Shown: in pieces, positions 1,384-25,701 of the stretch
Position numbering within the stretch: position 1 is the stretch's first letter
Layout of the letters: each line of letters begins with the position of its first letter
Origin: Actinomycetota bacterium
GTDB taxonomy: Bacteria; Actinomycetota; Humimicrobiia; Humimicrobiales; Humimicrobiaceae
Direction: 5' to 3'
Assembly (NCBI GenBank): GCA_026392215.1
Contig: JAPLCN010000192.1
Location: forward strand, 1 to 35,629
Length of the DNA stretch: 35,629 bases
The notes under the pieces: model-generated
Database searches by the model: none
What the model saw: only the letters and a program-made list of their open reading frames with translations
What the model was told of the DNA's origin: nothing
Translations under genes and position numbers: made by a program

Positions 1384-1814
1384 ATGTATGATTTAATACA
1401 TGATAGAACTACGGTTTATAATATCAGATACCATATTGTTTGGTCAGTTAAGTATCGAAAAGATGTGTTGATTGGTAAAGTTGAAAAAAGCTTAAAACAA
1501 ATATTAATAGATATAGCTAATGATGTCATCCGTCACCAGCATTGAACCATACGTCAGTAGCATTGAACCAGTCACCCAGAATAATGTCTGATCCTGTGCA
1601 TTTGTTTGTATCAGCAAAACCAAAGTATTCACCAAGTTATATATACAAGATGCTTAAGGGAATAAGCGGCAGAAGGCTTTTTATGAAATACCCGGGTTTA
1701 AAGAAGTAATTATGGAAAGGTCATTTATGGAACCCTTCAACGTATGTTGAAACAGTAGGTCATATATCAGAAGATACCATAGAAAAATATATACAGGATC
1801 AAAAAAAGAAATGA
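1384..1814 (+). pseudogene. tnpA: IS200/IS605-family Y1 transposase TnpA, degenerate
   Basis: 1384-1545 encodes MYDLIHDRTTVYNIRYHIVWSVKYRKDVLIGKVEKSLKQILIDIAND…; after a ~50 nt repeat-containing interruption the gene resumes in another frame with MSDPVHLFVSAKPKYSPSYIYKMLKGISGRRLFMKYPGLKK*LWKGHLWNPSTYVETVGHISEDTIEKYIQDQKKK* (1584-1814), including an in-frame stop at 1707-1709. Confidence 0.85.
1531..1577. repeat. Imperfect ~20-bp tandem repeat inside tnpA remnant
   Basis: CGTCACCAGCATTGAACCA (1531-1549) and CGTCAGTAGCATTGAACCA (1552-1570), 17/19 identical, followed by a partial third unit (GTCACC). Confidence 0.7.
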
Positions 1815-3000
1815 AAAACAAGAAAGATGATAATTATATAGAAATTGGATATAAGTTTAAAATATATCCAACAGAAGAACAAAAAGCTTTTTTTGAAAAG
1901 CATTTTGGATGTGTACGGTTTATATATAATTATTTGCTTAATTTAAGAACGGAAGTCTATAAAAAAGATAAAACTAATATATCAGGATATGAAGCAAAAG
2001 CCTTCAAGAAGCTGCAATTGATCTTGAGAAAGCTTACAGGAGGTTTTTTAAGAAACTGGCAGTCTATCCAAACTTTAAAAAGAAAAGAAATGAACAAAAA
2101 TTTAAAATACCTCAAAATTTTTACTTAAGAGAAACAAAAAAGGGTAAATTCTACTTAACAATTTCAAAGCTTAAATCAGATATAAAAGTTAATTTGCATA
2201 GAAAAATAGAAGGTGCGATTAATCAGATAACTATATCAAGAACCCCTTCCGGGAAATATTTTGTAAGTTTTAACTCTACAGTAGCTAAAAATAAAGTTTT
2301 TAAACAAAAAGATAATAAAACAGATAAAACAGGCATAGATCTTGGTATTGAGTCATTTATAACTACAGATAAGGGAGAAAAAATCAAACCCCCTATCTTT
2401 TTAAGATTACTGGAGAGGCGACTTAAAACCTCGCAGAGATCATTATCAAGAAAAAAGAAGTTTTCAGCTAATTTTCATAAGCAAAGAAAAAAAATAGCTG
2501 TTATCCATGAAAAAATCGCTTATCAAAGGTTAAATTTTCTTCATCAATTAAGTTTTAAGATAACTGATGAAAACCAAACCATTTATCTTGAGGACTTAAA
2601 TGTTAAAGGAATGATAAAAAACCGTCATTTATCAAAATCTATCGCAGATGCAAGCTGGGGAGAATTTACAAGACAACTAAAATATAAATCTAAATGGCGG
2701 GATAAAGAATTAATTCAAATCGGTAGATTTGAAGCTTCAAGCAAAACATGCAGTGTTTGCGAATGGAAAAATAAATACTTAAAGTTTCATCAAAGAAAAT
2801 GGCTCTGTCCTGAATGTAAAACTATTCATGACAGAGATATAAATGCAGCTAAAAATATTTTAAAACTAGGGCAGGACATGTCCAAAGTTAAGCCTGTGGA
2901 GAAATCAACCTCTGTTTTTTCTTTCAAAAAGAGACAAGTTGGCTCTGTGAAGCAGGAACCGGTTCCTAATATTGGGATGCACGGTAATTTATTGCCGTGA
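1811..3000 (+). pseudogene. tnpB: IS605/IS1341-type TnpB (RuvC-like, OMEGA nuclease ancestor), frameshifted
   Basis: N-terminal frame 1811-~2005 (YKFKIYPTEEQKAFFEKHFGCVRFIYNYLL…ISGYEAKAF); homology resumes in the frame of ORF 2194-3000 as SLQEAAIDLEKAYRRFFKKLAVYPNFKKKR…GIDLGIESF…YLEDLNVKGM…CSVCEWKN…CPECK…HDRDINAAKNIL. ATG overlaps the tnpA stop as ATGA. Confidence 0.88.
2954..2999 (+). ncRNA. Possible 3' structural segment of an OMEGA-RNA / IS right-end hairpins
   Basis: Perfect 14-bp palindrome AGGAACCGGTTCCT (2954-2967) and hairpin CACGGTAA-TTTA-TTGCCGTG (2980-2999; 8 bp with one G-T pair) overlapping the tnpB stop. Confidence 0.35.
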
Positions 3001-18263: not shown

Positions 18264-18614
18264 ATGGATAGAATTAAGAAAATTGAAATAGATCTGAAAC
18301 GGGAAATCAGTTTTATTATTAATTCAAAAGTAAAAGATCCCAGGGTCGGGTTTCTTACACTTACAGATATAAAACTTTCTGCAGACTATCATTATATGGA
18401 TATTTATTTTACAGTAATGAATAAAGATGAAAATTTAGAAACGTGCCTTGAGGGTTTGAATAAATGTAAAGGTTTTATTAAGAAAAATCTGATTGAAAGA
18501 ATAAAATTAAGAACTATTCCTGAAATTAAATTTATTTATGACCAGTCAATAGATAAAGGTATCAGAATTAGCGAAATATTGGAAAATATAAAAGTAAAAG
18601 ATAATAAGTCATAA
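18264..18614 (+). CDS. rbfA: Ribosome-binding factor A
   Basis: Small ORF after infB; KDPRVGFLTLTDIKLSADYHYMDIYFTV fits RbfA. Confidence 0.9.
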   Translation: MDRIKKIEIDLKREISFIINSKVKDPRVGFLTLTDIKLSADYHYMDIYFTVMNKDENLETCLEGLNKCKGFIKKNLIERIKLRTIPEIKFIYDQSIDKGIRISEILENIKVKDNKS

Positions 18615-18629
18615 GCCGGGGTATCTTCT

Positions 18630-19613
18630 TTGAATCTAACCGATAATCTTAAAAAAGTTGCGGACATTATAAACAATAATAATAATTTCGTAATATTTAC
18701 CCATTTATACCCTGATGGAGATGCAATAGGTTCTTCAATTGCATTTTATAAGATGCTGATCAATCTCGGAAAAGAAGCGTGTATTGTCTGTGATAGCGAG
18801 ATGCCCTATCAGTATCAGTTTCTGCCTTATTTGAACAAAGTTAGGAAAAGCTTGCCAGACATTTTTTTTGAAAACAAATATATTGCATTATTTTTGGATT
18901 GCGCCGATGTTAAAAGAGCGAAACCGGACTTAAAAAAAATAAAAGAAAATGCTATATTTATAATTAATATTGACCATCACTTAAGCAATACAAATTTTGG
19001 GGATATAAATATTGTAGACTCTTCCAGGTCAGCAACTGCAGAAATCGTTTTTATATTGTTTGATGAATTTTTTAAAAAATATATTGATAAGGAAACTTCA
19101 GAAAGCTTATATACAGGGATACTTACTGATACAGGCAAGTTCCAATATTCAAATACAACAAAAGAAGTGCATAAGATAATAAGCTCCCTTCTGGAATACG
19201 ATATTAATTCCTCACATATTTACAGCAGCATTTATGAATGCGAGCCGGTTAACAGATTTAAATTATTGGAGCTTGTTTTAAAAAGGATAAAATTTACTGA
19301 CGGTGAAAAGCTGATTTATTCATATATTCTTGAAAAAGATTTTTTGAAACTTAATCTTCCTTTTTCTTCCAACGACGGGATTATTGAGCTGTTAAGAGCC
19401 GTTAAGGATATAAAAGTAGCTGCACTTTTTAAAGAAATTGGCTTACATCTATATAAAATATCTTTGCGTGCTTCAAATAATGGAGTTAATGTTGCAAATA
19501 TTGCCAGTTATTTCGGAGGCGGCGGGCATAAGATGGCTGCTGCATATACTGCACAGGGAAAGTTAAAAAAGATCGTAGCAGATCTTTCTGAAGCTATAGG
19601 AAAGAATTGCTAA
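18630..19613 (+). CDS. nrnA: DHH-family phosphoesterase, NrnA-like (oligoribonuclease / pAp phosphatase)
   Basis: HLYPDGDAIGSSIA, DCAD, NIDHHLSNTNFGDINIVDSSRSATAE, C-terminal GGGGHKMAA. Confidence 0.9.
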   Translation: MNLTDNLKKVADIINNNNNFVIFTHLYPDGDAIGSSIAFYKMLINLGKEACIVCDSEMPYQYQFLPYLNKVRKSLPDIFFENKYIALFLDCADVKRAKPDLKKIKENAIFIINIDHHLSNTNFGDINIVDSSRSATAEIVFILFDEFFKKYIDKETSESLYTGILTDTGKFQYSNTTKEVHKIISSLLEYDINSSHIYSSIYECEPVNRFKLLELVLKRIKFTDGEKLIYSYILEKDFLKLNLPFSSNDGIIELLRAVKDIKVAALFKEIGLHLYKISLRASNNGVNVANIASYFGGGGHKMAAAYTAQGKLKKIVADLSEAIGKNC

Positions 19614-19671: not shown

Positions 19672-20678
19672 ATGGGTACAATTCAAAAATCAGATTTATT
19701 TAATAACTTCAACGGGTTGATTTTACTGAACAAACCTGCAGGCAATACTTCCTATGATGTTATAAGAATACTAAAAAATAATTTTTTTTTAACAAAATAG
19801 GCCATTGTGGAACACTTGATCCTTTCGCTGAAGGACTTTTAATCCTGTTAATAAATAAAGCTTCCAAAATATCCTACTCTTTGCTTTCAAAAGAAAAAGA
19901 ATATGTTGCTACTGTTAAGCTTGGTATAAAAACTGATACATGGGATATTACCGGTCAAATTTTAGAAAAAAATCAAGTTGGCCCAGTAAGCAAAAAAAAT
20001 CTGCTTGAGATCTTAAGAAGTATGAAAGGGGAATATGAGCAGGAAGTCCCGATTTATAGCGCAAAAAAAAGAATGGGGAAACATTTATATGATTATGCAA
20101 GGGAAGGCATTGAAATTGAGGAAGTTAAGAATAAAGTAAGAATATATGATATAAAGCTTATGAGCTTTATATCAGATGAATTTTGTATTAAAATCCGCTG
20201 CAGTTCCGGAACGTATATCAGGTCTGTTGCAAATGATTTGGGTATAAGACTTGGCTGTGGTGCAGTTTTATCAAAACTTAACAGGACAAAAATTGGAAAG
20301 TTTGATTTAAAAGATTCAATTATTCCTGAAAAGTTAATAAGTTTTTTTTACAGCAGCGATTATTACTTTAAGCCAAATGAAATTTTAAATTTAAAATATT
20401 TTATTCCAATCAGACTTCTTGCGGAAAGAAAAAAAACTATTTATGTTTATAAGAAATATCAGAAAATGCTGGAAAGCAGCTACCCGCTATATGGTTATAT
20501 GATAAATTTAAATAAAACAAATGGAAAAAATATCAAAGAAAATGATATTTTATCTGTTAAATGCCAGGGTTCAATTAAATATTACCTTCATAAGGCTATA
20601 ACTGACTTTAATACCATTGATGCTGTAAAAAGTGAACAAAAATTAACAAAATTCATTTTCGAAGAAGATACAATTTAA
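19672..20678 (+). pseudogene. truB: tRNA pseudouridine(55) synthase TruB, single frameshift in a T9 run
   Basis: 19672-19800 reads MGTIQKSDLFNNFNGLILLNKPAGNTSYDVIRILKNNFFLTK*; the +1-equivalent frame continues NKIGHCGTLDPFAEGLLILLINKASKISYSLLSKEKEYVATVKLG… to 20678. The ORF track (19881 on) misses the catalytic GTLDP segment. Confidence 0.9.
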
Positions 20679-20737: not shown

Positions 20738-21691
20738 TTGGCTCAAATAATAAATCTGGCTGATTTAAATGAGGATTTTTTTAAAAACAGTTTGAACATA
20801 TTAGTAATTGGTTTTTTTGACGGAATCCATAAAGGCCATAAAGATATTATTAAAAAATGCATAAAAAGAGCAAAAATTTCCGGTGGAGTAAGTATTGCGC
20901 TTACTTTTGATATCCCGCCTGTTAATATTATAAGCGGTAAAAAGACAAAAAAATTAATAATGCTTTTTGAAGAAAAAATTAAAATGATGGGCAGTATGGG
21001 TATTGACTATATAATTGGTGTTAGTTTTAATAAGGATTTTGCAGGACTTAGCGAAGTTGATTTTTGCAAAGAAATATTGATTAATAAAATCAATGCACGT
21101 GAAGTTTTCATTGGTGAAAATTTTAAATTCGGGAAAGGTGCAAAGGGAGATTATTTATTTTTAAGAAATTTCTTAAAAAAATATAACAGGAAGGTTCATG
21201 CAGTTAAATTACTTAAAATAAATAACATTGTTGTTTCAAGCACTGAAATCAGAAAATTATATAATGATGGAGATGTTGAGAAAATCAAGTTATTTTTAGG
21301 CCGTTATCCATCTGTCAATGGCATAGTTCAAAAGGGGCTTTCAAGAGGTGCAAGCCTTGGTTTTCCAACCGCAAATATAGAAATTGATGAGTCATATGTA
21401 ATACCAAAAAATGGGGTATACACAGGCAGGATTATAATTGAAAACAGCAAACAGTCTCTGCCATCCCTGATAAACATCGGCAATAACCCGACTTTCGGTT
21501 TTCGCAATACACTGATAGAAGCTTTTATCTTAAATTTTAGTAAAAACATCTATAATAAAATCATAACAATTAAATTTCTTAAATATTTAAGGCAGGAAAT
21601 AAAATTTACATCACAGGATGATTTAATAAAACAAATCAATAAAGATATTAAAAAGTCATGCGAGTTTTTTAGATCAGGTAAAAAATCATAG
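20738..21691 (+). CDS. ribF: Bifunctional riboflavin kinase / FMN adenylyltransferase
   Basis: VIGFFDGIHKGHKDII…; VVSSTEIRKL; GLSRGASLGFPTANIE…NGVYTGRI. Confidence 0.95.
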   Translation: MAQIINLADLNEDFFKNSLNILVIGFFDGIHKGHKDIIKKCIKRAKISGGVSIALTFDIPPVNIISGKKTKKLIMLFEEKIKMMGSMGIDYIIGVSFNKDFAGLSEVDFCKEILINKINAREVFIGENFKFGKGAKGDYLFLRNFLKKYNRKVHAVKLLKINNIVVSSTEIRKLYNDGDVEKIKLFLGRYPSVNGIVQKGLSRGASLGFPTANIEIDESYVIPKNGVYTGRIIIENSKQSLPSLINIGNNPTFGFRNTLIEAFILNFSKNIYNKIITIKFLKYLRQEIKFTSQDDLIKQINKDIKKSCEFFRSGKKS

Positions 21692-21874: not shown

Positions 21875-22144
21875 TTGTCTATTACAAAAACAGATAAGCA
21901 AAGCCTTATTGAAAAATTTAGAATTAATGAAAATGATACTGGATCTGCTGAAATTCAAGTAGCAATATTAACTACTCGAATAAATAGATTAAATGAACAT
22001 TTAAAATTAAATAAGACAGACCATGCTTCCAGAAGAGGCCTTGTAATGATGGTTGGCAAAAGAAAAAGGCTGATCGAATATTTGAAAAGTCATGATCTGT
22101 CAAAATATAAAAAATTAATAAAAGACTTAGGTTTAAGAAAGTAA
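21875..22144 (+). CDS. rpsO: 30S ribosomal protein S15
   Basis: NENDTGSAEIQVAILTTRINRLNEHLKLNKTDHASRRGLVMMVGKRKRLIEYLK. Confidence 0.98.
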   Translation: MSITKTDKQSLIEKFRINENDTGSAEIQVAILTTRINRLNEHLKLNKTDHASRRGLVMMVGKRKRLIEYLKSHDLSKYKKLIKDLGLRK

Positions 22145-24420: not shown

Positions 24421-25701
24421 TTGTCTAGTTTAATTCTTGAAAATTATGAGATTACTGAACTTGAAAACGGAATAAGGATTATAAGTGAGCATATTCCTTA
24501 TTTCCGTTCAATTTCACTTGGTATCTGGGTAACCAGCGGCTCAAGAGGTGAGTCTAAAAATCTAAATGGAATCACTCACCTTATTGAACACCTTGTTTTT
24601 AAGGGAACCAAAAAAAGATCAAACAGGGAGATAGCCATAGAGTTTGATTCAGTCGGAGCAGATTTCAATGCGTTTACTGATAAGGAAAATTCGTGTTTTT
24701 ATTGTGATTTCATTGACACACACCTTGAAAAATGCGCAGAGTTGTTATTTGATGTTGTTTTAAATCCGTCTTTCCTTCAGGAAAATTTAAACACCGAAAA
24801 AAAAATAATACTTGAAGAAATAAAAATGGTTGAAGATACGCCTTCGGAAGATATCTTTAACTATTATTATGAACTTGTTTTAAACAGTCATCCTTTAAGT
24901 TTGTCAATACTTGGCACCAGACAATCACTTCAAAATATTCAGATAAAGGATGTCTGGGATTATTTTAATAAAAGATTTGTTTTTAAGAATATTGTTGTTT
25001 CTGCTGCCGGAAATGTATTGCATAAAGATCTTGTTGAAGCTGTTAAAAAAAATATTGATAACCTTGTTTTAAACGGCTTAAATGAAAAAGCCGTCATAGA
25101 AAAAGAAGATCCTTTAATCAGCAGCGGATTAAAAATAATAAAAAAGAAAATCAAATCAGCCAATATTTGTTATGGGGGCATTGGATGCAGGAGGTCAAGT
25201 TCTGACAGATATCCTTTAAGTGTTTTAATGAATCTAATCGGAGGCAGTATGAGCAGCCGTTTGTTTCAAAAAATCCGGGAAGATTTAGGGCTGGCATATT
25301 CTGTTTTTGCCGGCAACACACAATATACTGATGCGGGCGTCATAGATATTTATGCTGCAAGCGATTCTAAAAATATTGGGAAAGTCATTGAAATTATTAA
25401 TGATGAAATAAATGATATAAAGAAAAATGCAGTAAACGTAATTGAGCTGGATAGGACTAAGGAGAATATCAAAGGCGGAGTTGTATTAAATGTAGAAGAA
25501 ATAAGTTCAAGGATGTTTAGGTTTGGCAAAAGTCTTTTAATTGATAACGAGGTTTTGCCTATTGATGATATTTTGAATAAAATAGACTTAGTAAGCATTA
25601 AAGATATATATGAAATTTCAAATAAATACTTTAACCCGGATAGGAAAAATATAGCAATTTTAGGTGAAGTGGGTAAAGGAGTTTTAAAGGAGTTAAGATG
25701 A
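24421..25701 (+). CDS. M16-family (insulinase/processing-peptidase-like) peptidase
   Basis: HLIEHLVFKGT (HxxEH), downstream E in EEIKMVEDTP, GGSMSSRLFQKIREDLGLAYSV. Confidence 0.95.
   Translation: MSSLILENYEITELENGIRIISEHIPYFRSISLGIWVTSGSRGESKNLNGITHLIEHLVFKGTKKRSNREIAIEFDSVGADFNAFTDKENSCFYCDFIDTHLEKCAELLFDVVLNPSFLQENLNTEKKIILEEIKMVEDTPSEDIFNYYYELVLNSHPLSLSILGTRQSLQNIQIKDVWDYFNKRFVFKNIVVSAAGNVLHKDLVEAVKKNIDNLVLNGLNEKAVIEKEDPLISSGLKIIKKKIKSANICYGGIGCRRSSSDRYPLSVLMNLIGGSMSSRLFQKIREDLGLAYSVFAGNTQYTDAGVIDIYAASDSKNIGKVIEIINDEINDIKKNAVNVIELDRTKENIKGGVVLNVEEISSRMFRFGKSLLIDNEVLPIDDILNKIDLVSIKDIYEISNKYFNPDRKNIAILGEVGKGVLKELR

Follow-up and report, generated by a model that had tools for sequence, protein, structure and literature searches.

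The truB gene is kept out of frame almost throughout the uncultured bacterial order Humimicrobiales (phylum Actinomycetota), the same one-base offset recurring at a homopolymer just ahead of the catalytic motif. Judging from comparison of the genomes, truB is probably a programmed-frameshift gene in which RNA polymerase slippage on a T9 tract supplies the correction, a reading that we hold with good, though not full, confidence. The window analyzed here, that is, the whole stretch of 35,629 nucleotides of contig JAPLCN010000192.1, comes from a 2.15-Mb metagenome-assembled genome of the Candidatus Humimicrobium lineage, whose sampled contigs have a G+C content of 33%. It carries a translation-gene operon consisting of infB, rbfA, an nrnA-like gene, truB, ribF, rpsO, and pnp. 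The order rbfA-nrnA-truB-ribF-rpsO was common to the relatives checked, in which the neighbors of truB likewise matched as single unbroken proteins. The features of the truB region are as follows.

18264-18614, forward strand: rbfA, upstream of truB, unbroken (single full-length match).
18630-19613, forward strand: nrnA-like phosphoesterase gene, upstream of truB, unbroken (single full-length match).
19672-19800, forward strand: upstream 0-frame truB ORF, 42 aa, MGTIQKSDLFNNFNGLILLNKPAGNTSYDVIRILKNNFFLTK, from the sequence, with its frame kept in relatives (pN/pS 0.37).
19779-19781, forward strand: TAA closing the catalytic frame directly 5' of the tract, from the sequence.
19782-19790, forward strand: T9 slippage tract, the proposed site of a +1 nucleotide RNA insertion (T9 to U10), with a run in 29/29 frameshifted orthologues.
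19782-19791, forward strand: overlapping candidate -1 heptamers U_UUU_UUU (19782-19788) and U_UUU_UUA (19785-19791), from the 0-frame sequence and the efficiency classes of PMC4066793.
19782-20678, forward strand: downstream (-1 relative) truB ORF, NKIGHCGTLDP..., the catalytic and C-terminal part, from the sequence and profile matches.
20738-21691, forward strand: ribF, downstream of truB, unbroken (single full-length match).
21875-22144, forward strand: rpsO, downstream of truB, unbroken (single full-length match).

Elsewhere in the window, a small two-gene unit resembling an antitoxin and a PemK/MazF-type toxin lies near the contig start (641-1299), and a TnpB-like gene in two ORFs (1811-2128 and 2194-3000, within 1811-3000) is probably a decaying transposon gene.

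The first-pass annotation had described truB as split by a one-base frameshift at T9 before the GTLDP motif, and this description was confirmed by base-level reading, by profile matches, and by alignment with Escherichia coli TruB. The run contains exactly nine T (A19781, T19782-19790, A19791), and the two ORFs are offset by one base missing there. The 0-frame ORF starts at ATG 19672, bears the conserved N-terminal NG-LL-NKP-G-TS motif, and runs through ...NNFFLTK to TAG 19798-19800. The catalytic-frame ORF, closed on its 5' side by TAA 19779-19781, extends to TAA 20676-20678, and its first ATG, GTG, or TTG occurs at 19881, past the catalytic GTLDP. One added base joins MGTIQ...ILKNNFF with NKIGHCGTLDP. 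The catalytic half matched the TruB_N profile with 163.6 bits and TIGR00431 (TruB) with 195.2 bits, the latter above the curated cutoff of 151.45, and the joined product aligned with E. coli TruB (PDB 1R3F/1K8W) with an ungapped junction (E ~1e-43). Furthermore, the GHxGTLDP motif and the N-terminal KPxGxTS region occur together in the joined reading, whereas neither ORF alone has both. The joined product is predicted to be TruB, the tRNA pseudouridine-55 synthase. A family search of the window's genome found no second truB, so that the gene is present as a single copy.

The orthologue set comprised 30 truB genes from 35 genomes of the order (one family, 15 genera), and 29 of these genes carried the identical one-base offset at the identical codon. 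When tract length was compared among these relatives, a check proposed in the first-pass annotation, the run was T9 in 24 of the offset genes, T10 in four (G004, G007, G031, and G033), and A9 in one (G022); in other words, its length was nine or ten, and never below nine, in all 29. The T10 alleles differ from their neighbors by substitutions and, having arisen in this way, are still out of frame. In G022, A9 substitutes for T9 a few bases further upstream, with the offset unchanged. The lone in-frame truB of the order (G005; L023/L039, G005:C179, first 130 bases) has kept T9 and has an extra A upstream; because its tract lies 87 bases from the contig end, this in-frame allele may or may not be real, and it may represent either a natural revertant or a local assembly error. 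In the outgroup families of the class (G035-G039), truB is an ordinary in-frame gene, and the long run was absent from the three outgroup genes read at base level. When the site pattern was searched across 397 Actinomycetota genomes, matches were confined to Humimicrobiales (29 genomes, a count that includes G005 and misses the A9 species G022). On this comparison, the recurrence of the offset at one codon in 29 of the 30 genes is far beyond chance. Five of the orthologues (G006, G007, G022, G025, and G033; loci L030, L173, L026, L019, and L024) have a catalytic/C-terminal ORF that is approximately 70-90 residues shorter, with 205-221 codons versus 294 in the window's genus, which suggests that the C-terminal domain of TruB has been lost in several genera.

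Approximately 100 of the 113 exact T9/A9 sites in the window's genome were inspected, together with runs of at least ten where these fell within the stretches examined, and truB was the sole non-mobile gene with a convincing split among the inspected T9/A9 sites. The other clear split was an IS3-like orfA/orfB transposase pair at an A9 near positions 1198-1206 of locus L166 (G000:C177:1700-3851). On the minus strand of locus L113 (G000:C54:3300-5445), at about position 875 when counted on the reverse complement, a further pair of ORFs is offset at an A9; the upstream ORF looks like a helix-turn-helix transposase.

Both halves of truB are under purifying selection at the protein level. The pN/pS ratio pooled over all pairs was 0.37 for the upstream piece (26 codons) and 0.49 for the catalytic piece, at a pooled pS of approximately 0.72, that is, with synonymous sites saturated. 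The two alternative frames of the upstream piece were full of stops in relatives. Phenylalanine is encoded by TTC at 55 of 318 positions elsewhere in the truB genes and at none in the tract of the T-run species; the probability of this avoidance, approximately 5e-8 if independence is assumed, exaggerates the case, since the species share ancestry. The catalytic frame lacks any ATG, GTG, or TTG ahead of the catalytic motif in 27 of the 29 species with the offset, and full-length TruB would therefore require frame correction there. The comparison thus strongly indicates that full-length TruB needs such correction. A single added T, turning T9 into T10, would bring the gene back into frame; even so, 29 of the 30 genes have stayed out of frame across deeply diverged species (the median end branch of the tree is 0.41 changes per column), and hence the offset itself appears to be selected. 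The truB offset is probably a selected gene-expression signal, kept across the order, rather than a rescued accident.

Transcriptional slippage is preferred here to a ribosomal shift because the run holds a length of at least nine even as its phase moves, because A9 replaces T9 in one genus, because no conserved RNA stimulator accompanies the tract, and because long A/T runs are depleted in the genome's coding sequence. As in programmed slippage, an A/T homopolymer roughly nine bases long or longer stands at the frame transition in every frameshifted orthologue, and the site is evolutionarily conserved with both frames under selection. The codon phase of the run differs by one base between groups of species: at bases -28 and -19 from the Gly codon of GTLDP, T is nearly mutually exclusive (19/8/1/0, Fisher p 3e-6), a probability that overstates the case because the tree needs just two phase changes of the run and the independent events are therefore few. 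No conserved RNA structure was found in six windows around the site (alifold energy 0, z ~0.4), and comparison of the orthologues found no conserved Shine-Dalgarno-like element near the tract. In 181 kb of coding sequence from the window's genome, 11 A/T runs of at least nine were observed versus approximately 32 expected from codon shuffling, and runs of 4-8 were about equal to or above the expectation. In many genomes, selection against runs prone to slippage becomes visible at a length of nine, a signature that has been linked to slippage-prone polymerases, although replication slippage, and not transcription slippage alone, may contribute to the depletion of long runs (Baranov et al. 2005, PMC1088944). 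Insertions during transcription grow exponentially with the length of an A/T run (PMC5574713). An in-frame run of this otherwise depleted length, A9 at 24796-24806 on the sense strand, occurs in the intact M16 peptidase-like gene at 24421-25701. Among the options listed in the first-pass annotation, which drew on a single sequence, slippage or programmed frameshifting at T9 is supported by the order-wide offset together with a run that never falls below nine.

The process that we propose starts from a one-base offset of the genomic frame, located in a homopolymer of nine or more T (A9 in a single genus) immediately ahead of the catalytic GHxGTLDP, such that full-length TruB would be obtained only after frame correction, the step to which the comparison points. 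The nascent RNA would realign along the template at T9, and some transcripts would gain one U (U10). These U10 transcripts would be translated into normal TruB (...NNFFFNKIGHCGTLDP...), and the unslipped transcripts would yield an inactive peptide of approximately 42 aa. Less firmly, we suggest that selection keeps the offset, probably holding TruB, and perhaps the downstream genes too, at a low or tunable level.

An unlikely but credible alternative is programmed -1 ribosomal frameshifting, in which the ribosomes would re-pair on U_UUU_UUU (in the window also U_UUU_UUA, and A_AAA_AAA in G022). The required correction is exactly -1, a 0-frame slippery heptamer is present in 29/29 species (U_UUU_UUU in all T-runs, A_AAA_AAA in G022), a 0-frame stop that may assist the shift directly follows the run in 19 of the 29, and motifs of the type H_HH.U_UU.Y rank with the more efficient ones in E. 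coli, in whose terms U_UUU_UUU would be a usable -1 heptamer (PMC4066793). However, unlike the well-studied dnaX-type -1 sites, the truB site has neither a conserved stem-loop nor a conserved Shine-Dalgarno-like site as a stimulator. Furthermore, seven bases would suffice for a ribosomal shift, yet the run is held at nine or more, and the phase moves and the A9 swap are more simply explained by run length alone, as transcriptional slippage would have it.

A different question is why the arrangement has persisted, whatever the mechanism by which it is read. It might be a tolerated accident, in which an ancestral indel was rescued by background slippage and maintained neutrally, as has been described for endosymbionts; the slippage chemistry would be identical, and runs of this kind are hypermutable, but we consider this very unlikely, given that deep divergence has left 29 of the 30 genes, T10 alleles included, out of frame and that the host genome, at 2.1 Mb, is not that of a reduced endosymbiont. 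Translation of the catalytic half as a separate polypeptide, through internal initiation or re-initiation, finds some encouragement in a downstream ORF that is long and opens near the upstream stop. It is nevertheless extremely improbable, because the downstream frame of 27 of the 29 species offers no ATG, GTG, or TTG ahead of the catalytic Asp, and a split enzyme would give no need for conservation of the homopolymer. Homopolymers are error-prone and these genomes are metagenome assemblies, but a sequencing or assembly error, which the first-pass annotation had considered, is refuted by the recurrence of one offset in 29 species that were assembled separately, kept across two phases, T10 alleles formed by substitution, and A9; the genes adjoining truB are, moreover, unbroken, and an error is almost certainly the wrong explanation. 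The annotation had also allowed for true loss, or for a decaying copy with a second truB elsewhere. The frame does break ahead of the catalytic motif in a gene with a single copy, but the retention of the offset across the order in 29 species, purifying selection on both halves, no second lesion, and no second truB in the genome refute this option and leave a pseudogene with next to no probability.

With transcriptional slippage as the preferred reading, truB can be set beside several known systems. The dnaX gene of Thermus thermophilus (A9) is, like truB, a chromosomal housekeeping gene with a nine-base A/T homopolymer. In T. thermophilus dnaX, RNA polymerase reportedly adds bases at the A9, resulting in two products. 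The full-length protein of Thermus dnaX is the in-frame product and slippage leads to the shorter one, whereas in truB slippage would be needed for the full-length protein; truB also differs in having a T run and in being a different gene. Shigella spa13 and the orfAB genes of IS elements resemble truB in having an offset at an A/T run and a longer product that requires slippage, but they are secretion or mobile-element genes, whereas truB encodes a conserved tRNA-modification enzyme. The release factor gene prfB (RF2) resembles truB as a conserved, translation-related gene of the chromosome whose full-length product always depends on frame correction; the prfB shift, however, is ribosomal and +1, with a Shine-Dalgarno stimulator and RF2 autoregulation, none of which was seen at truB. 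Rescue at poly(A/T) tracts in Buchnera and Blochmannia likewise concerns disrupted ORFs of AT-rich genomes that are read through by slippage, but those cases are scattered, lineage-specific, and thought to be accidental, whereas truB is one gene with order-level conservation. Finally, the GeneTack survey described split dnaX and magnesium chelatase fs-genes with a conserved two-ORF arrangement and A7-A11 runs that need frame correction, and frameshifting of 10-63% was measured in E. coli for the magnesium chelatase fs-genes (PMC3711429). Those are A runs in other genes, whereas the truB arrangement is fixed in one order, and the main text of the survey does not mention a pseudouridine synthase (PMC3711429).

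Our literature searches, which covered open-access papers, found no earlier report of a truB frameshift or of slippage in truB. To our knowledge, few chromosomal, non-mobile bacterial genes depend on conserved homopolymer frame correction for a working product. The truB gene joins the known slippage-dependent genes; what is unusual is that the arrangement is fixed across an order and in a gene for tRNA modification. Automatic annotation is likely to label truB a pseudogene or to omit it across the order, and frameshift polishing of such assemblies would remove a real signal. The natural variants (two phases, T10, A9, and one in-frame allele) of this near-universal tRNA-modification gene constitute a test set for distinguishing transcriptional from ribosomal frameshifting and for asking why a lineage would keep a core gene out of frame. 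The simplest idea is that the benefit of the kept offset may be a low, tunable level of TruB. A more elaborate possibility, which we regard as quite unlikely, is that slippage acts as a regulator: TruB output would follow the proportion of transcripts with U10, itself governed by how fast RNA polymerase moves or by the UTP level, and unslipped transcripts, with a stop after approximately 42 codons, would lower ribF, rpsO, and pnp by polarity. If this were true, slippage on a U run would serve the whole order as both sensor and attenuator within its translation-gene operon.
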